Shown: positions 8,763 to 54,904 of the stretch, piece by piece
How the letters are laid out: the number at the start of each line of letters is the position of its first letter
Numbering within the stretch: the stretch's first letter is position 1
Notes under the pieces: generated by a model
The model's database searches: none
The model's input: only the letters and a program-made list of their open reading frames with translations
What the model was told of the DNA's origin: nothing
Translations under genes and position numbers: made by a program
Assembly: GCA_032622095.1 (NCBI GenBank)
Contig: CP136066.1
Span: forward strand, 57,130,609 to 57,194,608
Reading direction: 5' to 3'
Source of the DNA: Siphonodentalium dalli
Lineage: Eukaryota > Mollusca > Scaphopoda > Gadilida > Siphonodentaliidae
DNA length: 64,000 nucleotides

Positions 8763-8982
8763 CTAGAAAGGAAGACACATTCTAATTAATATTTGTGGAT
8801 TTTAAGGACTGAATTTACTAAAACATGATCAAAGCGTATTGATTTGTTCACTCCAGAATGAAGCAAATAATAAACACAATGGCACGCCTCAAAATCAAAT
8901 AAAAAAACAAACAAATGAACCAAAGCAATATTTGTCCACTTTGCATACATAACGAGTCATAGGCAACCATAGCAGGGCTTAA

Positions 8983-9357
8983 CGGTACGGGAGGCCTTGC
9001 TGTGAAAATATTTCCATCGGTCAAAAACCGCCACAAACAGAAAGAATATTAAAATGTAGACAGACTTTGTCCGTATAGATACAAATAAGAAATATCGCAT
9101 AAACAGTATGTTATTGTCATATGTTTGACCATTGTTATGTAAACAAAAGCTTAAAAAGTTACTTTCCTGGTGTTTGTTTATCTTATGATGGTAAACATAA
9201 AGAGCGTTCTTTGTTGCTGAATTCCTGATATGGAACTAATAAAGAGCGTTTATATCATTTGTGTGTGATTAGCCAGTAACACTGTGCTGGCTTCTGTAAC
9301 ACAATCAGGCTCTTGCTTAGGTAAAATATAGTAGGTCTTTATGATAGCATGCTGTTT
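8983..9357 (+). mobile_element. TTAA-associated MITE, family C, truncated copy
   Basis: It starts right after TTAA (8979-8982) with CGGTACGGGAGGCCTT and follows the full-length copy at 22179-22671 closely through GCATGCTGTTTA at 9346-9357. Beyond that the sequence diverges, so the right third and right terminus are missing. It carries two of the AAAGAGCGTT motifs (9197, 9240). Its position, between two exons of a minus-strand gene, suggests an intronic insertion. Confidence 0.85.
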
Positions 9358-9599
9358 AAAAAAAACTAATTTTAGTGGGAAAATATTAGCAGTAGTTCGG
9401 CTGAAACGACGATAGCTGTCAGTTGAAGGAAGTCCTGTTGAATGTTGATTGCGAAAAACATTTTCGACTTTTCGTTGCCTGAAACGGAAGTGCAGTTTGG
9501 AAATCCATGCATTACCCGCTTCAAAACCCACCCCCGCTCGTGGCTGCGACCCTCGTAATCTGATTTTGGAACATCATGCTGATATTTAGATTCCTCACT

Positions 9600-11032: not shown

Positions 11033-11156
11033 CTTATCAAATTTATGAAAGCGAACAACATGATAACAAAATTGTCTATAATTATGCGATCTATTGTTGA
11101 ACTTGAAATTATTTAAATTATTGATAAGATTCAATGAGATTTAACTCAATATTTAA

Positions 11157-11677
11157 AGATATGGGCGGCGTTGGCGGTGGGTATGCTGTTAAAATATTCA
11201 CCTCCACCAAAAACCGCCTTAAAAAGAAAGAATAATAAAATATAGACATACCTTGTTCTTATACCAATCAGAAATAAGGCATAAACAGTATGTTATTGTC
11301 AACTGTTTTTCCTTTGTTATGTAAACAAAATCATAAAACGTTACAGAACCTGGCTTTTGTTTAGATCCGGATATGGTCAACATAAAGAGCGTTATTTGTT
11401 ACTGTATTCCTGATATTGAAATAATAAAGAGCGTTTATATTATTTGTGTGTGAATAACCAATAAAATTTCGCTGTGTATGTAAATAGAAGCAAAACGTCT
11501 GCATAACAAGATCAGGCTCTTGTTTACGTACACCATCGTACGCCTTGACGACAATATACTATTTACGCGCTGATTATATTTGGCATATGAACAAAGCTAT
11601 GTATATTTTAATATTCCTTCTGCTGATGGCGATTTGAACATATATGAATAATTCTGCAACGAACGCCGCCCGTGCCT
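11157..11677 (+). mobile_element. TTAA-flanked MITE, family C, full-length copy
   Basis: The 521-bp element lies between perfect TTAA duplications (11153-11156 and 11678-11681). Its terminal inverted repeats read AGATATGGGCGGCGTT and AACGCCGCCCGTGCCT. The interior matches 22179-22671 (GGCGGTGGGTATGCTGT, CAGTATGTTATTGTCA, two AAAGAGCGTT motifs, ATCAGGCTCTTG). It lies between the zinc-finger frame and the candidate upstream exon. Confidence 0.9.
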
Positions 11678-11689
11678 TTAATTATTTGG

Positions 11690-21291: not shown

Positions 21292-21504
21292 CAGTAATGC
21301 TCTAAGTAATCAACTCCTTAACCACAGCAGAATTATGGGTAACTTTTCAGGATTTAGTCGGAAATATGGCTTGTTGCCATTCATCGGAAAGCTCTCAGAG
21401 AGCTTTCCGATGAATGGCAACAAGCCATATATCCGACTAAATCCTGAAAAGTTACCCATAATTCTACTGTGTTTAAGGAGTCGATTATACTCGGGGCATT
21501 ACTG
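21292..21504. mobile_element. Near-perfect palindromic MITE, family F (copy 1)
   Basis: A 213-bp inverted repeat whose ends read CAGTAATGC and GCATTACTG, with about 100-bp arms meeting at CGGAAAGCTCTCAGAGAGCT. The arms share GGGTAACTTTTCAGGATTTA and GCTTGTTGCCATTCATCGG. Copy 2 is at 26798-27010 with the same length. No target duplication was identified. Confidence 0.9.
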
Positions 21505-22178
21505 TATTCGATATCTCAAGCTGTTGCATACCGAAAAGACTTGGGCTAGTACCTGAACAGTAAACCTGCAATCTGCATGATTCATGAAACAGCTATTGAA
21601 ACCATGCTGTATATACTCAGAATTACACAATTTTGTTTATGGGTTTGTTGATATGACACGAGTGCTAGCGCACAATGACGGAATGAACAACACACCCTAG
21701 AGTTCTATCTTTCCTCAATGGCACAAGTGCCGTATCAACAAATCCATTAATACAAGTGTCTTTCTGTGTTTATTACACATCACCCGTCCTAGAATATGTG
21801 CATTTAAAAATACAGGGTTACGATGTTTATTAAGGCACATACAGTGCTTGTTTTGTCATGTGTGATGATTTTTTTTCCTATCGTTTGAACTGGATACTCA
21901 AATAACAGAAATTGTTATATATTTTTTTTTCAACCGACAGATTTGAGGTAACTCTTTCTATAAATATATTGAAAATCATGTGTCGGGATGTAATTATTAG
22001 CAATCAATATATTTTTTGTTGCGTATATAGGTTTATACAATTTTAAGAGGCAGAACAAGATACAGGTACTTTGTATAGTTTCATTTCGCGAATGTACACA
22101 GTATCTTGTTTGGCCACTTGCAATTTTAGAAACCCATAACTTTAACGAGAAATTGTTGATTGTATATTTAAAGTTTAA

Positions 22179-22671
22179 AGGTACGGGAGGCCTTGGCGGT
22201 GGGTATGCTGTGAAAATATTTCCACCGGTCAAAAACCGCCACAAACAGAAAGAATATTAAAATGCAGACAGACTTTGTCCGTATACAAATAAGAAATATC
22301 GCATAAAAAGTATGTTATTGTCATATGTTTGACCATTCTTATGTAAACAAAAGCATAAAAAGGTACTTTCCTGGTGTTTGTTTATATTATGATGGTAAAC
22401 ATAAAGAGCGTTCATTGTTGCTGAATTTTGATATGGAACGAATAAAGAGCATTTATATCATTTGTGTGTGATTAGCCAGTAACACTGTGCTGCCTTCTGT
22501 AACACAATCAGGCTCCTGCTTAGGTAAAATATAGTAGGTCTTTATGATAGCATGCTGTTTACGCGATGGTCATGGTATATATGAACAAAACTGTATGCGT
22601 TTTAATGTTTTTCTGTTTACGGTGATTGAAACAAATATGAATATTTTCGACAACTAAGGCCTCCCGTGCCT
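22179..22671 (+). mobile_element. TTAA-flanked MITE, family C, best-preserved copy
   Basis: The 493-bp element lies between TTAA at 22175-22178 and 22672-22675. Ends are AGGTACGGGAGGCCTT and AAGGCCTCCCGTGCCT, a 15-of-16 terminal inverted repeat. It shares its interior with 11157-11677 and 8983-9357. No coding capacity. Confidence 0.92.
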
Positions 22672-22734
22672 TTAAGCCCCCTTATTGTCTCTATTATAGA
22701 AGTTTTTATATTCAGAATAAATGTCAATTGTATA

Positions 22735-26795: not shown

Positions 26796-26797
26796 CA

Positions 26798-27010
26798 CAG
26801 TAACGCCCTAAGTATTCGACTCCTTGAACACAGCATAATTATTGGTAACTTTTCAGGATTTAGTCGGAAATATGGATTGTTGCCATTCATCGGAAAGCTC
26901 TCGGGGAGAGCTTTCCGATGAATGGCAACAAGCCATATTTCCGACTAAATCCTGAAAAGTTATCCATAATTATGCTGTGTTCAAGGAGTCGAATACTTAG
27001 GGCGTTACTG
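26798..27010. mobile_element. Near-perfect palindromic MITE, family F (copy 2)
   Basis: 213 bp with ends CAGTAACGCCCTAAGTATTC and its complement. The arms meet at AGCTCTCGGGGAGAGCT. Compared with copy 1 at 21292-21504 the core is almost unchanged while the ends differ. Confidence 0.9.
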
Positions 27011-27450
27011 TATGTGTTAAGAAATTATGCATGCATGATTGCCAATAGAACACAAACAAATTGTCGATATAATTGAATATTGATGTATACTTGTACGACA
27101 AAATACCACACCTTGTTTTCAAACTGACAAAAATTGTATGCGTGATAAAACATCAGTTCGCGATTTCAGACCACACATATACTGAAATTGAGTTGAGAGT
27201 TTTGTTTTCCAGCAGTATATTTTAAGACAAAAAGTCAAATATCTTCCTGGTTTCGGTCGGAGTTTTAGACTGGAGCGGCCTTCAATTTCAATATTCCAAC
27301 CATATCTAGGGAGGCTAAGGGAGTAAAATTTCAACAGCTGCAAAGCTGTAAAATTACAATTCGAGGGGAGCTCCAAATGTAATTTCAGACTTTGCGACTT
27401 CATTTCGATCTAGATCAACCGGTGTGATGCGTTTAGAAATATTGGATACC

Positions 27451-27957: not shown

Positions 27958-29690
27958 TCCGTTAACTACGTGCGACGTAAAATCACCTGTAGTGGTGATA
28001 CCTTAATTTGCCTGTAAATAGCATGCAATTATCTCACAAGAATACCGGCATTTGAAGGCAAATGCCAGTAAAACAGTTACAAACGGAACTACAAGAATTA
28101 TAATTCTTAAATCGTTCGCTTTGGTAAAGATGCATGTTACAAGCACGTTTCAATTCATATTATGTGCATGTGGTTTTCTATTGCGAAACACCTGCAAAAG
28201 ACACCGTGTAAACTTGTCTGCGCATGAACGTACCCTCCTTATCTGCTCTCTATATAAGGATTATAACCTGTATGCCGAATGTAAACATACATTGACACGT
28301 TTGATTCGCTTTTATGGAATACCGTTTCAATGCATTTAATTAAGCGGCAACACACATGCGATACAGTATATGAATAGATACAATACCTGTCAGCCAATAA
28401 ATACAATATGTCATGCAATAATAGAAAAGGTGTAGTTATCCATGAAGTACGAATTTTACATGCTTGAGAGTATATACGCCTGGGGGACCTAAATATTGGA
28501 CCTTCAAGTTAACACCGATGTATTTTGTTTAACAATGACGCGGTTTGGGTTGAGAAAGAGTGGTTAGTTTGCAAGCTTCAGATATCTTATAATATTACGG
28601 ATTTATATATTTTCGAGTCTGTTGTGAGTATGTTAGCTATATATAATCACATGTGAAATTACAGAGAATGTATTGATTGCGTAGTAAACAGCGGGCTACG
28701 TGCAATTATGTCGTTTCATTGCACGAACTACGTATATAAATATAAACATTTACCCGTTACTACGGACCTAAATAATAACATATAACATAATGGTGTTTCC
28801 CGTGTAGGCTGTACTCTGTTTCATAAATGTTTTTTTCGTGACTCCAGATACTATCAAAGTCTGACTGTCAAGTAAACATCCTGTAATTAGGATAGGAACA
28901 CATGAAGAAATCTTAATTGAAGATAGTGCATTGTGTCCCCCAAAGGCATGTTGATCATGTTTGCCATTCAATCAAAAGTTAATTCAATGGTTTGTGGTGT
29001 TATATATTCCTATTTAACAATTAGTAAAATGCTCGTTGACAATCGGATCACTTGCGTCAGCATTAGTTATCAGCAATGATAAACCATTTTGTCTCCGAAT
29101 TTGAAAACGTGTTTATGCTGTTAAAATGTTTCTGAATAAAACAGATTCTTCCTTGTGATAATAAATTGTTTCGGCTGTTAAGGTTATTTTTCGTCTTGTT
29201 GTCATAATGGAATTATCGTTAAGAACACAGGAGGCAATATTCCGGTAGTGTTCGGACTCCGATGTGAAACTATTTCACACTGCATGAAGTTTGTGTGATG
29301 AACTATCACTGGCATTCATGACAAAAGACTTAACCAAACTGCATATATTGCCTACATTTTCGGCGTACATGCATGTATATGTGAACAGTTTGTGGAATGT
29401 TCTCAATGGTATCATTGCGTGATTATTGTGGATTAAACATTCCAAACAGGTTTGGATTTCGTTCAGTTCACTTCCAATCACCACGCCCGTCCCGACAAAC
29501 CAAAGAATATTCAATCGAAAGTGTTGGGCCCCCATCCATGCAGTCCACTCCCTCTATCACTCCCTCTATTACCTTACCATCTCTATACATATACATGCGA
29601 CGACGGCAAATGGTTACAATGACTTTATTAAATTTCAATTGTTATACTTACTATTTTATTTGTTTACACCACAGTGCTATCTATTATATT
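27958..29690. other. Gene-free stretch
   Basis: It contains a small hairpin (GGCATTTGAAGGCAAATGCC near 28047). About 29455-29690 may be the 3' UTR of a retrotransposon whose tail reappears at 31841-31893 beyond the inserted element. Confidence 0.35.
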
Positions 29691-29710
29691 TGATTTGTTC
29701 GGGAACATGT

Positions 29711-29820
29711 CTCTATTCCGAAGGTTCGCTATTCCGAAGGTTCGCTATTCCGAAGGTTCACTACTCCGAAGGTTCGCTATTCCGACGGTTCTCTATTCCG
29801 AAGGTTCGCTATTCCGAATA
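29711..29820 (+). repeat. 16-bp minisatellite forming the left terminal repeat
   Basis: Nearly seven tandem copies of TTCGCTATTCCGAAGG with minor variants (TTCACTACTCCGAAGG, TTCGCTATTCCGACGG). Confidence 0.95.
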
Positions 29821-30287
29821 TTTTTTTTTTTTAAAGGTTAATTCTATATTCAAGTATTGAGAGGGTTCTTTATCAAGAAGACTCTTTTTATGAAGGAAAT
29901 AACTTAAAACATTGAAACAATAAATGTTATTTTTTTTATTTTTTTGCGGGTTTCCTTGAGATTTAATGTCATTACGTATGACGTTATTTTCCAATACATA
30001 TTCACGTCTGGCATGCAGCCCACACAATTGCTCTTTCCATGCGATTTAATGTCATCGCGTATGGCATTATATCTCAATAATCGTACAGGCAACAATACTT
30101 CAGCTGAAGGCGGGATTAAAACAGCGGGACTATAACTCTTAATGAATACTGCGAAGCAGAATGTCGTCGAATAGACGGGTATGAGTTGAACCTAACTGCA
30201 ATTGTGAATTGGTATTGAATTATATTTACATACACCTGATATCTCTTCCGATTTCCCCATAGCGTTACGGTAGACACACCCCTTATT

Positions 30288-30359
30288 CAATGCGTTCATA
30301 AACCTATGAACGTAACGTGACGTCACTTCCAGTGTCGTTCATAGGTTTATGAACACATT
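30288..30359. repeat. Perfect-arm hairpin containing TGACGTCA in the loop region
   Basis: Arms of 24 bp (AATGCGTTCATAAACCTATG...) pair with 30336-30359 with one mismatch. Each arm contains its own GTTCATAAACCTATGAAC palindrome. Confidence 0.85.
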
Positions 30360-30896
30360 GGTCCCGGAAATCACCGGGGATTGTCGGAAATTACCGACTG
30401 CTTGAGTATCTAGTAGGTCCGGATTTGGCAAGAAATTTGTTTCGGTCTACAATCAGTGTTGTTGCTCGGTGTTACTGAGCGTTGATGTTAAAAAAAAACG
30501 CGCTACTCAATAGAGTTTTATCATTATCCTTGCCGCTACAAATATTCCCCCGAACCTCACAAATATATTATTATGGTAGAACGGCGTATTGTCGATTTCT
30601 TATCTGCAGCCGAAACTTAATTGTTAGTTTCAGATATTAATCATTCTTGAAAATCAACACGTCTACATTAGTTACAAGCTAAACAAGACATTTTGTCATA
30701 TGTGTATACTTTACTGTGAAATTGCGTTTCTTCCGTTCTCCATGAACGGATTCTCAAAATGTTTGGTTTTCCAAAAAACAAGGATTCGAACTGTCTGAAC
30801 TGAACTCCATGCGTTCGTTTAAATAGATGAATAAATAGTGGGAAAGACATAAAATCCTAGTTCTTAATGAATTTAAGTATATAAATATAAATAATA

Positions 30897-31035
30897 AACG
30901 GCGGATTCAACGTGGTCATGGGTTTTGACCGCGTTAAAAAAATCAGCAAACTCCGCATGAACCCCTTCGGGGTTCATGCAGTTTGCTGATTTTTTCTCGC
31001 GGTCAAAACCCCATGACCGCATTGAAACCGCCGTT
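30897..31035. mobile_element. Fold-back MITE, family G, near-perfect 67-bp arms
   Basis: The arms run AACGGCGG...GGTCATGGG...TTGACCGCG...AATCAGCAAACT...GCATGAACCCC and are mirrored on the other side of a TTCG loop. It is nested inside the 29702-31830 element. Confidence 0.9.
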
Positions 31036-31699
31036 CATTTCTTATGTAAGGCCCACTTAATTTTCGAGTCATCGGCTATTTTTCATAGTGCCTTGATATC
31101 AGGTTTTAAACACAATCTGTGCAATAAATATGATTAAAACACTATATATAGTTCATCACCATTCCAAACGTCTGTATCAGAAGATGCCCCTGGAGAAATA
31201 GAAAACATCTTAAATCATAAAAAAGATTCCCCCGTTTATATATGTCATGTCTCTCCGAATGCAACATAATTCAACCTAATGTATTTTCAATTGAAGGAGA
31301 ACATTATCTTTAAAATATAGAGTTACCCCCACCCCCCCTCCATTGAAAATAATACACTTTACTTTGCGCAACAAAACCAAATGAACCTTAAGCACAAAAA
31401 CAAGTCGTTAACCCTGTGGGCCTTGAATGTTGATGTTTTTTTTTTCAAATACAGATTGCCAGTTCGGAAAACTACATCTCTTAGTTGATTTCAGTCATCG
31501 TGTTTTTAACTTTCCATAATGAACGATAAACTGATACTCTTTTCTTGCTATTAATAACCGATATCTAGGACAATTTGGGAATTATAAGTGGATGTATAAA
31601 TGTACTATATATGAATACTAGCGTAATCGTATTTTTCATTCCTCGTGTGGTTTTTGTGGTGGGGTGCAAATTTTGATTCATTTCTGGTTAAATACGGCC

Positions 31700-31824
31700 A
31701 GAATAGAAAACCGTCGGAATAGCGAACCTTCGGAATAATGAACCTTCGGAATAGGGAACCTTCGGAATAATGAACCTTCGGAATAGCGAACCTTCGGAAT
31801 AATGAACCTTCGGAATAGAGAACC
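31700..31824 (-). repeat. 16-bp minisatellite forming the right terminal repeat
   Basis: About eight copies of CCTTCGGAATAGCGAA and variants (AATAATGAA, AATAGGGAA), the inverse of the array at 29711-29820. Variants alternate, unlike the more uniform left array. Confidence 0.95.
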
Positions 31825-31840
31825 CTACCCGATTTGTTCG

Positions 31841-31893
31841 TGTGTTACACATGTAATTAGAACAACAATAAAGAATCTTGAATCTTGAATCTT
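31841..31893 (+). mobile_element. Retrotransposon-like 3' tail: AATAAA plus (AATCTTG)3
   Basis: AACAATAAAGAATCTTGAAT continues with two more AATCTTG units (to 31893), typical of a LINE 3' terminus ending in short tandem repeats. The 2.1-kb element lies just upstream, so it probably inserted into this 3' UTR. Confidence 0.6.
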
Positions 31894-32234
31894 GCTAATA
31901 ATGGTGCGATCCGTGGTTTGACTTCCCGAGTGACTGGCGCTATCATTATCATGGCGTATTGTTAGAATTTCACACCTTCCGCTCCGACCTCCTTCCAGCT
32001 TACTATTCAATTAATGTCAATTTATATGTGATATATAGCTCAATTCTATATCTCGGTCCGTCGAAATACAGATTCATACAAGAAATATTGTTCATGAATC
32101 GGAGCAATTTGATTAAGACCGGCAAAACAAGCTTCAAATGAACAGTAACGTTCGTGTCTCGATTTGTATAGGTTTAAATCGACAACGGTCGCTATATACA
32201 TGTATCACGGTGGTTTCGAGGTAGGTGAGTACCA

Positions 32235-33214: not shown

Positions 33215-34060
33215 GTATTCTTACTTGTTGATTTGGCCGCATCATGATTGGTGTTCGACGCATGCATATATAGTCTTTTTTGCTGTCAGTATTTGTTGGT
33301 GCAACACTAAGAGTTATCTATACAGATTAAATAGCGTGTTGTCATATATATTGCTGATATTATTCGTAACAATCGACGTTCATTGCGGGTGTGTCATATT
33401 GTATGGACGCGATTTGGTCTCGTTTGTATTTAATTAGTGGTATTTGTTGCATTTAAAGTAAAATATTATAGCACACTGTCCCACACTGTACGCGTGTACA
33501 CCTCTGTTGTATCTTAACCTGAGATAATCTCTTGCATATTAAATTACTATTTGACGCACGTGAGGTCGTACTTTAATCTGGATTATTAACACGTTCTGGT
33601 CGTCGATCTGGATAGTATAGCTTATAAATATGTCATTTCCGACGTGTCATGCCCAACACTTACCTTCGCTATTACACAGGATCTCATCTCAACCCATTGG
33701 CTTGGACTATTCCTGACTGTTATTCCACAAAAGTGGAAGTAATCTTCACCGAAGTTGGACTATTCCTGACCATACCTCATGAATTCCGCTGAACGCATGT
33801 GCCTATCTCACCTTCTGCCGAATTGCCATCACGAACATACAAATAATTGTATGTGTACCTATTATATTGTATATAATTTGCACCTGTATATATCAAACAC
33901 ACTGTCATGATATGCATGTAAACTCTCTCACACGAGGAGGCAATACAGATATATACAGTCCCAAACCAAACCTAGTGCGTGTACGAACCTGTTGTGTCTT
34001 ATCCTGGGAAGCAACATTGCCAAACAGAAAACTGGAGAAAACTTTATTGCATGTTCAATT
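33215..34060. other. Gene-free stretch
   Basis: Contains a short direct repeat, TTGGACTATTCCTGAC (about 33701 and 33754). No supported coding. Confidence 0.35.
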
Positions 34061-40985: not shown

Positions 40986-41630
40986 TTGGCTTGCCGAGAT
41001 CTCACCATGTATTGGTAATTTCTAACTTGACACTTCCTAAGGTTGGAAATTGAACTGATGACTATGCATTTCAGTCCAAAGTAGCGAAATATGCCATTCT
41101 TAATCTAAAACAACAAATTCCCGATAGCACTAATTACTGGTTGGAAAAGCAAACTACGAGAACAATTTCAAGCTATTGTTAGCGTAAAATATCCAACTGT
41201 TGGCGAGGTGGGGGTCAGACAGGCCACAAACCCCTTGTCGCAACGCCCCTGTTTTAATAACCAGATATATATAGACCAAAACTCATTTCTTTAGAAATCA
41301 TAACACGTTTTTTAACTATGTATACAATGAAGTCAGCTGAAGTGTGAATTTTACTTATTGTGTCTTATCGTTACAGATCCGGGATCCATTCGAGCCATGC
41401 ATACGTAAACAGATTTTTAACGCATACTACATCACATGAGCGATACCATCTTTACACGCCAAGGCTAGACAGCGGACCGTAGGAACAAGTAAAGGATTTA
41501 TACGCCGAACGAAGTGACTGGATTTTTTTTTTTAAATGTTCAAATATATACTAACAGGCTACGTGGATTTTCTGGAAATGTTTTTATTTTCAAACAAAGG
41601 TCAAACAAGTGCGACGCTGATTTAAAGAAC

Positions 41631-43067
41631 ATGGCTGTTGCTATGGTGATAGGTGTGTTTTCTAGATTATGCCGCTGCGTTAAAGGAAAGCTTCTGTTCA
41701 ACAGGAGATTACTTGTGATTACTCTCATATGCGTGCTTCTGATATATCTCAATCAGATGTTTAAAGCCGATTTTTTTGCAAGAACTATCACGACAAAGCA
41801 TCCATCAAAACAAGGGCAAGCCATGCGTGGGGAAAGTCAGCTGAATTCCAATTTAAACAGACTGGGGAAATATCGTCGGAGTAATAGATCTAACAGTCAG
41901 TACGCTTGTGACAATCAGGACTGGGTGAAGTCCTTCAACAGTGTTTGTTCTGGGAACTTCGTGGGCTTCAGTGGGCAGTTCGCGCTTCTTCGGAACTTTG
42001 TTATTCACCCGGAAAAAATAAAAGACTTGTCTGGAGGCTTGAATATGAGTTCCATCATGAATCAGGCAGAAAACAAAGAGTATCTGGAAGCAACAAATAG
42101 CTGTTTCGAAATATCGTGCAATGTGCACGATTTTAAATACAGCTTTCAATTAGGTGATAAAAACCACCTCAACAAATGGATTCAGGTTACTCAGCCCCTC
42201 GCTGGGAAACTCAATTTCAGTAGATTCGACGTTAATAACGATTTCATTATATTGGTGATGAGATACGAGTACGTTAACTTGTACCACACGATGACAGATA
42301 TCTACAGCGCATACAAAGTGATGTCATTCTTAGGAAAATCTCCAGATGAGACGACTATTATGTTTTTTGACGCGCACCCGGCAGGCGGACTGGATAAAAC
42401 TTGGAGTACTCTTTTCAAGAAATTCATCAGAGTGAAGTCGTTGAAAAAGGCAACTGCCTTCACGAATCTTGCATGGAACACAATGGGCTACAACAGCCAA
42501 CTAAACCAGCATGGTTTACCGGCATTACCATGCGTCGAAGAGTTCTCTAATTTCTACCCCCAACGACACGGAGTACCTGTACAGAACACACCCCCGGAAT
42601 GCCAAAAATTACGCCTCTTGTTCATATGGCGACGAGATTACATCGCTCACCCGAGAAACCCTTCCGGGCACGTTTCCCGCAAAATAAAAAACGAGGACCA
42701 ATTGATAAATGTAACAAAAAATGCTTTCCCGGGATATTCAATAAGTGCAATTGATGCAGAGAAATTGGACATGCATCACCAGTTGCTATGGATACGAAAA
42801 ACAGACATCCTTATTGGGATGCACGGAGCTGGTCTGTCCCACGTGCTGTTTCTTCCAAAATCGTCAGCTGTTATTGAAATTTATCCTACATATTATTCAT
42901 CTTCAAACATTCATTTTAAGACGTTTGCCAAGTGGAGAGGGCTTAACTATTTCTCTTGGCAAAATCAGGACGAAGCCAATGAGTTTGCTAACCAGTACAC
43001 GTACATTCCACCCAATGTCCTGGTGGACTATATAAAAATAGCCAAGCAGAAAATATGTACAACTTAG
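41631..43067 (+). CDS. Intronless family 61 glycosyltransferase (EOGT/POMGNT2 superfamily), type II membrane protein
   Basis: The 478-residue frame starts at an ATG with a good Kozak context (AACATGG) and ends at TAG (43065-43067). The frame is also open from an ATG at 41514, but those 39 codons are T-rich and poorly coding, and a TACTAAC...AG intron-end pattern lies at about 41550. Residues 27-43 (LLVITLICVLLIYLNQM), preceded by basic residues, form a signal anchor, so the enzyme should face the Golgi or ER lumen. The DUF563/GT61 fold is clear: RYEYVNLYHTMTDIYSAYKV (about residues 211-230), FIWRRDYIAHPRNPSG, and the hallmark GMHGAGLSHVLFLPKSS at 396-412 followed by EIYP. Family members move GlcNAc or xylose from UDP-sugars onto O-linked or N-linked glycoproteins; the acceptor here is unknown. 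Unlike EOGT it has no C-terminal KDEL-like signal (ends KICTT). A single exon suggests a retrocopied or lineage-expanded gene. Confidence 0.88.
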   Translation: MAVAMVIGVFSRLCRCVKGKLLFNRRLLVITLICVLLIYLNQMFKADFFARTITTKHPSKQGQAMRGESQLNSNLNRLGKYRRSNRSNSQYACDNQDWVKSFNSVCSGNFVGFSGQFALLRNFVIHPEKIKDLSGGLNMSSIMNQAENKEYLEATNSCFEISCNVHDFKYSFQLGDKNHLNKWIQVTQPLAGKLNFSRFDVNNDFIILVMRYEYVNLYHTMTDIYSAYKVMSFLGKSPDETTIMFFDAHPAGGLDKTWSTLFKKFIRVKSLKKATAFTNLAWNTMGYNSQLNQHGLPALPCVEEFSNFYPQRHGVPVQNTPPECQKLRLLFIWRRDYIAHPRNPSGHVSRKIKNEDQLINVTKNAFPGYSISAIDAEKLDMHHQLLWIRKTDILIGMHGAGLSHVLFLPKSSAVIEIYPTYYSSSNIHFKTFAKWRGLNYFSWQNQDEANEFANQYTYIPPNVLVDYIKIAKQKICTT

Positions 43068-52720: not shown

Positions 52721-52728
52721 AAATAAGT

Positions 52729-54535
52729 CACATGATAGCATGTTCCAGAAAATAACACAATATAACACAGTATAAACAGTATACACCTTATACACGAGCA
52801 TACACCTCTACCAGCCTGAGAACAAAAATCAGAATATCGGAATTGTCCGGTATAAGAGAAGAATCGAACGCATTCTGAGAGGTGCCACCCAGCACCGAAC
52901 ATGAAACTGTATGAATTCGGTAGGCCATATTACCTCGACTGGCGGATTTCAGCGTCGACTTGTTTAATAATCGAGTCGATGTCGATTAGTCAAATAATTA
53001 TTTCAACATTAGTTAGCAACCATATAATATTATGCCTTGTGTAACAACAGTGAACTACTTTGAAAAAGATCCATTGAACTTGAGAAGGATTGGTTTTGCA
53101 ACAAATAGGTACCGACAGTATCATTATTAGTATGCCACATATAGTTGTCAGCAGCTTTTGTAGGTCACTGCGGATGGTCAGTTGAGCTCTTGATCTGCAT
53201 GGCAGATGTTACACATGTGGTAATCAAAGAGTAATTACATGGAGTAATAACTGAATCTCTTTATAATCTTATATAGCCATCAACGTTTTCCGAGTTTTGA
53301 TAAAAAACATGGCCGCCAATGACCATCTTCGATTTTATTCTTTCCATGACTCAATAATTTGGTATACCCTACTTGTCCAATCGTTAATAAACTTCATATG
53401 GATCTTCGGGATACTAAACCCTTTAGCACAGCATACAGTCCACTTCACTCATCCGATCATTACCAAACTTCATATGTATTTGATATTGATATATTAGATG
53501 AGAGCTATCAAATATTTTTTTAATTTCATAGGAAAAAATGGTCGCCAGCGGCCATATTGCATTTACGTTATATGTTATCGCTTCATGTCGATATCTAGTA
53601 TTACTTAGAAATTTCAGCTTTCAGCTTTCCAGATTCACATGATAGCATGTTCCAGAAAATAACACAATATAACACAGTACAAACAGTATACACATTATAC
53701 ACGATCATACACCTCTACCAGCCTGAGAACAAAAATCAGAATATCGGAATTGTCCGGTATAAGAGAAGAATCGAACGCATTCTGAGAGGTGCCACCCAGC
53801 ACCGAACATGAAACTGTATGAATTCGGTAGACCATATTACCTCGACTGGCGGATTTCAGCGTCGACTTGTTTAATAATCGAGTCGACGTCGATTAGTCAA
53901 ATAATTGTTTCAACATTAGTTAGCAACCATATAATATTATGCCTTGTGTAACAACATGGAACTACTTTGAAAAAGATCCATTGAACTTGAGAAGGATTGG
54001 TTTTGCAACAAATAGGTACCGACAGTATCATTATTAGTATGCCACATATAGTTGTCAGCAGCTTTTGTAGGTCACTGCGGATGGTCAGTTGAGCTCTTGA
54101 TCTGCATGGCAGATGTTACACATGTGGTAATCAAAGAGTAATTACATGGAGTAATAACTGAATCTCTTTATAATCTTATATAGCCATCAACGTTTTCCGA
54201 GTTTTGATGAAAAACATGGCCGCCAATGACCATCTTCGATTTTATTCTTTCCATGACTCAATAATTTGGTATACCCTACTTGTCCAATCGTTAATAAACT
54301 TCATATGGATCTTCGGGATACTAAACCCGTTAGCACAGCATACAGTCCACTTCACTCATCCGATCATTACCAAACTTCATATTTATTTGATATTGATATA
54401 TTAGATGAGAGCTATCAACTATTTTTTGAATTTCATAGGAAAAAATGGTCGCCAGCGGCCATATTGCATTTACGTTATATGTTATCGCTTCATGTCGATA
54501 TCTAGTATTACTTAGAAATTTCAGCTTTCCAGATT
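52729..54535 (+). repeat. Recent tandem duplication, two copies of about 0.9 kb
   Basis: Copy one is 52729-53635 (907 bp) and copy two 53636-54535 (about 900 bp). By eye they differ at about 15 positions plus a 7-base TCAGCTT-type indel, roughly 98% identical. They include two ATGGCCGCC/ATGGTCGCC phrases followed by CCAT. The 66-codon frames in each copy (53297, 54204) are duplicated by the event and have no other support as genes. Confidence 0.95.
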
Positions 54536-54904
54536 CACATCGCTCCATTCACTGTAACAGATGAAATTACCCCCCTCTTCGGATAGAGTGTCACTGAAAT
54601 TTTATTTTGTCAGACTGCCTGTAGTCACTGATTATATGTGGAAATAATCTGTAATAAGATGTAGCATTCCGCATTCTTGTCATCATTTGAAATATAAAAA
54701 ATTACCTGATACATGTAGTCCAATGAAAATTAACAAGCGTCCATAAATTAAATGTACCTATGATCCTATTATTCCTCCCAATCACATGCACCATTCAAAA
54801 TTTTGTTTCGTCGTATCTATTTTTAATGATCCCTATGGCAATATTGATATAGATACATTTGTCAAATATTTCTTTGTACAATATACAGGTATATAGTTTG
54901 TAAC

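Follow-up and report, generated by a model that had tools for sequence, protein, structure and literature searches.

The 2130-bp segment at 29701..31830 (no strand assigned) is, judged from its structure, probably a non-autonomous Foldback-type Mutator-like element (MULE), a reading to which we assign a probability of about 0.8. Its ends are formed by inverted arrays of a 16-mer that pair in register, and an identical short sequence is found at both outer edges. It most likely represents a new family within the already described animal Mutator/Foldback class, in a comparison based on open-licence PMC literature. The core of its repeat unit hardly varies while the spacer is free, as expected of a row of protein-binding sites. 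The element would be a clear example of a Foldback-type MULE with such arrays, and the transposon reading accounts for a pattern that repeat annotators would otherwise log as two minisatellites.

Element boundaries and target-site duplication

By aligning the two ends as an inverted repeat, base 29701 is paired with base 31830 (86% identity over 131 nt, terminal caps included). Read inwards, both ends start with GGG, and the element runs GGG...CCC. The left terminal cap, GGGAACAT (29701..29708, + strand), shares just bases 1-3 and 5 with the right end; the right terminal cap is CCTACCC (31824..31830, + strand). The sequence GATTTGTTCG occurs at 29692-29701 and 31831-31840, immediately outside both element ends, and these flanking copies are the only two exact ones among the seven matches with at most one mismatch in the window (the whole 64-kb stretch of DNA analysed). 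Since the ends pair at 29701 and 31830, the natural parse is a 9-bp duplication, GATTTGTTC, located at 29692..29700 and 31831..31839 (both + strand), with an element of 2130 bp between the copies; the tenth base of the flanking identity, 29701 on the left, is the first G of the element under this parse. The original prediction had reported a perfect 10-bp target duplication: the 10-bp identity is present, but the end pairing favours a duplication of 9 bp, with 8 or 10 bp also possible.

The probability of a 9-bp identity, estimated from base composition, is about 6e-6 at two fixed places and about 8e-4 if each boundary is left free over 11 positions. Among 3,000,000 random pairs of places in the window, 9-bp matches were found at a rate of 9.3e-6. 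At the spacing of 2139 bases, 61,851 window positions yielded two nine-base matches and one ten-base match, and since a ten-base match holds two nine-base ones, the matches at this spacing consist of the flanking pair alone. The claim that this segment is a DNA transposon is therefore borne out by the combination of inverted, in-register arrays and a flanking duplication.

Neither the unit scan nor a similarity search detected a second copy of the element within the 64-kb window. When the flanks were joined and compared with the window, they matched only themselves and the right-flank repeats, and nothing was found across the junction. The right flank (31841-31895), a stretch without a further copy in the window (E up to 0.01), holds AATAAAGAATCTTGAATCTTGAATCTTG, which resembles the 3' tail of a non-LTR retrotransposon; an older repeat may thus have been the insertion site of the element. 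Other repeats observed in the window are a tandem duplication of about 907 bp at 52728-54540 (97.8% identity), a palindromic MITE-like repeat in two copies at 21292-21507 and 26797-27013 (about 90% on both strands), and a dispersed repeat in three copies at 8979-9358, 11152-11681 and 22175-22675 (73-92% identity).

Terminal arrays and their repeat unit

The inverted arrays, built from the 16-mer TTCGCTATTCCGAAGG, bound a 2.13-kb segment. The left array (29709..29818, + strand) comprises seven 16-bp units, of which the last is truncated. The right array (31701..31822, - strand) repeats the same 16-mer in inverted orientation, with seven complete units plus part of an eighth, and is partly organised as a 32-bp dimer. 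When the whole window was scanned for TTCGCTATTCCGAAGG with up to three mismatches, 15 matches were obtained versus 0.31 expected by chance, namely seven at 29709-29820 (+), seven at 31711-31822 (-) and a weak stray at 33665. TRF reported period 16 in both arrays, plus period 32 in the right array, and the arms align inverted and in register (29710-29817 with 31821-31714) over 108 bp at 92.6% identity. The unit scan, TRF and the arm alignment thus all confirm the predicted inverted 16-bp arrays as the ends of the element.

The 13 complete units (six left and seven right, with the cut-short left seventh and the partial right eighth dropped) were compared column by column. Column 4 is nearly free (0.17 bits), column 5 is semi-free (1.22 bits), and the remaining columns range from 1.38 to 2.0 bits. 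Seven distinct unit changes were counted by hand, and four of these fall within two of the 16 columns (4-5), with p 0.006 on the assumption of equal column rates. As the differences between units are concentrated in columns 4-5, the unit is best described as a core of some 14 bp, TATTCCGAAGGTTC, that is nearly constant, plus a variable 2-bp spacer.

The original prediction further held that the left array is nearly uniform, that the right array alternates between two variants, and that the two ends have been homogenised independently. The first of these points did not hold, with mean pairwise differences between units of 1.73 in the left array and 1.67 in the right. The alternation with a 32-bp period is real in the right array but modest: the observed contrast is reached by 168 of the 5040 possible orders of its units, and by 364 of 720 orders on the left. 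Likeness within arrays, set against likeness between arrays, reaches its observed value in 552 of 1716 relabellings of the units (p 0.32). Independent homogenisation is consequently unsupported, because units are no more alike within arrays than between them and the left array is no more uniform than the right.

GAAnnTTC, a motif that makes up two-thirds of a heat-shock element, is part of the array unit: the arrays (248 bp) hold 11 copies of it, as against 27 for the remainder of the window. A heat-shock-element reading was considered and dropped, since the arrays hold no three-unit element. Scans of viral and prokaryotic contig collections, whose misses are uninformative on animals, gave no match to a two-unit pattern of the array in either collection. 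When the pattern was shortened to 19 fixed bases, the viral contigs again yielded none, and two bacterial loci were found; both show the same single site, carry no array and were taken as chance. In the literature, the repeat letters were found in one unrelated paper, which holds only one of two 12-base strings, and among open-licence PMC texts no paper combined GGGTAGGG with transposon terms. Among the papers listed from the same open-licence PMC texts, none describes the present family.

Class assignment, interior and alternative readings

The inverted terminal repeats (TIRs) and the target-site duplication at the ends are those of DNA transposons of the TIR order. The TIRs are composed of short tandem repeats, as in Foldback elements, and the number of units differs slightly between the ends (seven versus seven and a partial eighth). 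Published duplications of MULEs span 8-11 bp, a range that includes the 9-bp best parse. The earlier assignment to MULEs had been drawn from duplication length; it now rests on more than that, because the end anatomy also matches published Mutator/Foldback elements. On the other hand, with no transposase domain in the scanned open reading frames (ORFs) and no second copy in the window, membership is proposed from structure alone. The lack of a MULE-domain transposase in the scanned ORFs is as expected for a non-autonomous copy.

The interior has a G+C content of 36%, versus 37% for the window, and the ORFs scanned reveal no recognisable coding sequence. Once ORFs that cross most of an array or extend into the flanks had been set aside, the 10 longest of the 34 stop-to-stop ORFs (minimum 35 aa) that overlap the element region showed no transposase domain; a single domain match among them, below threshold (E 0.14), was taken as chance. 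Capture of a host gene, as in a Pack-MULE, was likewise rejected, with no domain in the scanned interior ORFs. Across the window, 13 of the 15 ORFs of at least 115 aa (three of them in start-trimmed form only, and those at 29423 and 35592 left out) contained no transposase domain at E up to 0.1. A PAN domain was found among the scanned window ORFs, and an uninterrupted 517-aa ORF at 41514-43067 carries a glycosyltransferase-61 domain (E 3.5e-14), with nearest solved relatives named EOGT and POMGNT2. From these two domains the host appears to be an animal; it may be a mollusc.

Three further structures lie inside the element. A direct repeat at 29951..30079 (+ strand) consists of two 46-nt copies, 83 bp apart and 80% alike. 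A hairpin with 36-nt arms occupies 30288..30360 (no strand assigned; fold z -7.5), and the longest direct repeat near its ends is 5 bp. A near-perfect long hairpin of about 150 bp occupies 30887..31045 (no strand assigned; -68.3 kcal/mol, z -16), with a loop of 3 nt in the predicted DNA fold. This long hairpin is possibly a nested MITE or a source of small RNA; a search around it for a flanking duplication gave nothing convincing, only a 6-bp match away from its ends. The nested-MITE reading was set aside for both hairpins, as neither has a convincing flanking duplication. Searches with Rfam at gathering thresholds and for tRNAs gave nothing in the window.

If the MULE reading is correct, the transposase would be encoded elsewhere in the genome, and would probably combine a FLYWCH zinc finger with a MULE catalytic domain (Phantom/Muta type). 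Such a transposase may recognise the repeated core of about 14 bp, so that each end would present a row of seven to eight binding sites, and may assemble as a multimer on the arrays. The DNA would then be cut at its two short caps (GGGAACA... on the left, ...CCTACCC on the right) and inserted via a staggered cut of about 9 bp. We infer this mechanism, a row of binding sites with a staggered cut at the caps, by analogy with described elements.

The main alternative places the element, still as Foldback-like, in another superfamily, that of Galileo (P) or hAT; its arrays would work in the same manner, with a transposase that carries a THAP or BED finger. Duplications are 7 bp in Galileo and the P superfamily and 8 bp in hAT elements. 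A 7-bp parse (ATTTGTT) gives the ends CGGG...CCCG, which are also in register (29699 pairs with 31832), and Foldback-like ends also arose outside MULEs, as in Galileo of the P superfamily. However, this parse requires three chance matches beside the duplication (simple counting gives about 1 in 64) and an 8-bp parse requires two, and both the repeat length and the caps fit MULE families, so we regard another superfamily as unlikely. A Rehavkus-type element, which is MULE-related, is a much poorer candidate: Rehavkus is described with a 9-bp duplication, 26-400-bp TIRs and a minisatellite that precedes the 3' TIR, but the minisatellite of the present element makes up both of its ends instead of standing before the 3' TIR only. 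Finally, although the window is rich in tandem arrays (22 TRF rows, with some overlap), two unrelated minisatellite loci inverted by coincidence are barely credible, and the corresponding refutation named in the original prediction is strongly disfavoured, given that the arrays have the same unit, pair in register at 92.6%, lie beside an identical 9-10-bp flanking repeat, and that each of the four other arrays tested lacks an inverted partner within the window, with up to 22% mismatches allowed.

Comparison with known Foldback-type elements

The preferred reading, a Foldback-type MULE, can be set against elements with similar ends. In the TU elements of sea urchins, short tandem repeats of about 15 bp make up the inverted repeats, and the duplication is 8 bp. 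Galileo likewise has Foldback-like tandem-repeat TIRs and, unlike MULEs, a P-type transposase. Transposase-binding sites have been identified in the tandem repeats of its TIRs, and for a rebuilt Galileo element the authors report no detected transposition (PMC3688188). The suggestion that the present arrays may act as multiple transposase-binding sites is thus retained by analogy with Galileo only, an element of a different superfamily. Tetris of Drosophila virilis is also a non-autonomous Foldback element with tandem-repeat TIRs and 8-10-bp duplications, and is described as having been assigned to Mutator from its structure alone, as is done here; its repeats measure about 220 bp, versus 16 bp in the present element (PMC4079207).

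Closer in scale are the MULEs of Aedes aegypti. According to the published description (PMC5225508), the 145-bp TIR of Muta1 consists of a 10-bp terminal motif and nine copies of a 12-bp repeat, the subterminal repeats being separated by 3-4-bp spacers; Muta1 has 8-9-bp duplications, is mobile in yeast, and has over 300 putative non-autonomous derivatives. The same source describes subterminal tandem repeats of 9-15 bp in 10 of 12 Aedes MULE families with long TIRs, and no movement in the same yeast assay for Muta5, which has nine 15-bp repeats. As in these Aedes elements, whose duplications are 8-9 bp, a short terminal motif is followed by many short repeats at both ends of the present element, and the 12-bp core and 3-4-bp spacers of Muta1 add up to about its 16-bp period. 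The Aedes MULEs are also described as including many non-autonomous copies with unrelated interiors, and no transposase was found in the ORFs scanned here. Muta1, unlike this copy, encodes a transposase, and the likeness lies in the described architecture.

A further comparison is provided by Tm1 of Meloidogyne, as reported in PMC3169594. Of 53 Tm1 elements that carry both caps, 45 have duplications of 8-10 bp, mostly 9, and its TIRs carry asymmetric 7-bp caps and 13-15-bp repeats in one to nine units, the number differing between ends. Its one longer, autonomous type contains a MULE-domain transposase, and most members have none. In 24 of 39 elements from M. incognita and in 20 of 22 from M. 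hapla, one end is capped by A1 and the other by A2. The present element has in common with Tm1, as described there, the 9-bp duplication, asymmetric caps outside inverted arrays and a difference in unit number from end to end. However, its left cap, GGGAACA or CGGGAAC, does not match the reported A1 (CGGTTAA/CGGATAA), motif B (GGA) is by eye absent next to the caps, the core by eye differs from the repeat consensus of motif C, and no GA-rich motif D was seen at the array edges. Judged by the letters of its left cap, by the lack of GGA and by its repeat consensus, the element is not a Tm1 member.

The point of most interest lies in the right cap, whose seven bases, the last of the element, are the letters of Tm1 motif A2, with strand agreement deduced from a table legend. 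In that legend the elements are oriented with the right TIR ending in A2 (PMC3169594), which suggests that CCTACCC and A2 stand on the same strand; the GGA motif is described in the same report as internal to both caps, and the printed strand of A2 is thus not beyond doubt. CCTACCC or its complement occurs four times in the window, the right cap included (about 3e-5 per site and strand), and a hand calculation allowing for two ends, both orientations and a one-base slide gives a value on the order of 4e-4 for a chance match that was noticed post hoc. It is conceivable, though rather improbable, that CCTACCC, the cap shared with the nematode family Tm1 and confined to one end, is a signal for cleavage that has been conserved across a widespread Foldback MULE lineage; we keep the odds low because the printed strand of the Tm1 motif is only deduced. 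If this were true, the two ends would be functionally unequal, with one fixed and one free cap, and the arrays, free to change sequence between families, would only load the transposase. The letters common to this element and Tm1 could be tested cheaply across animal genomes.
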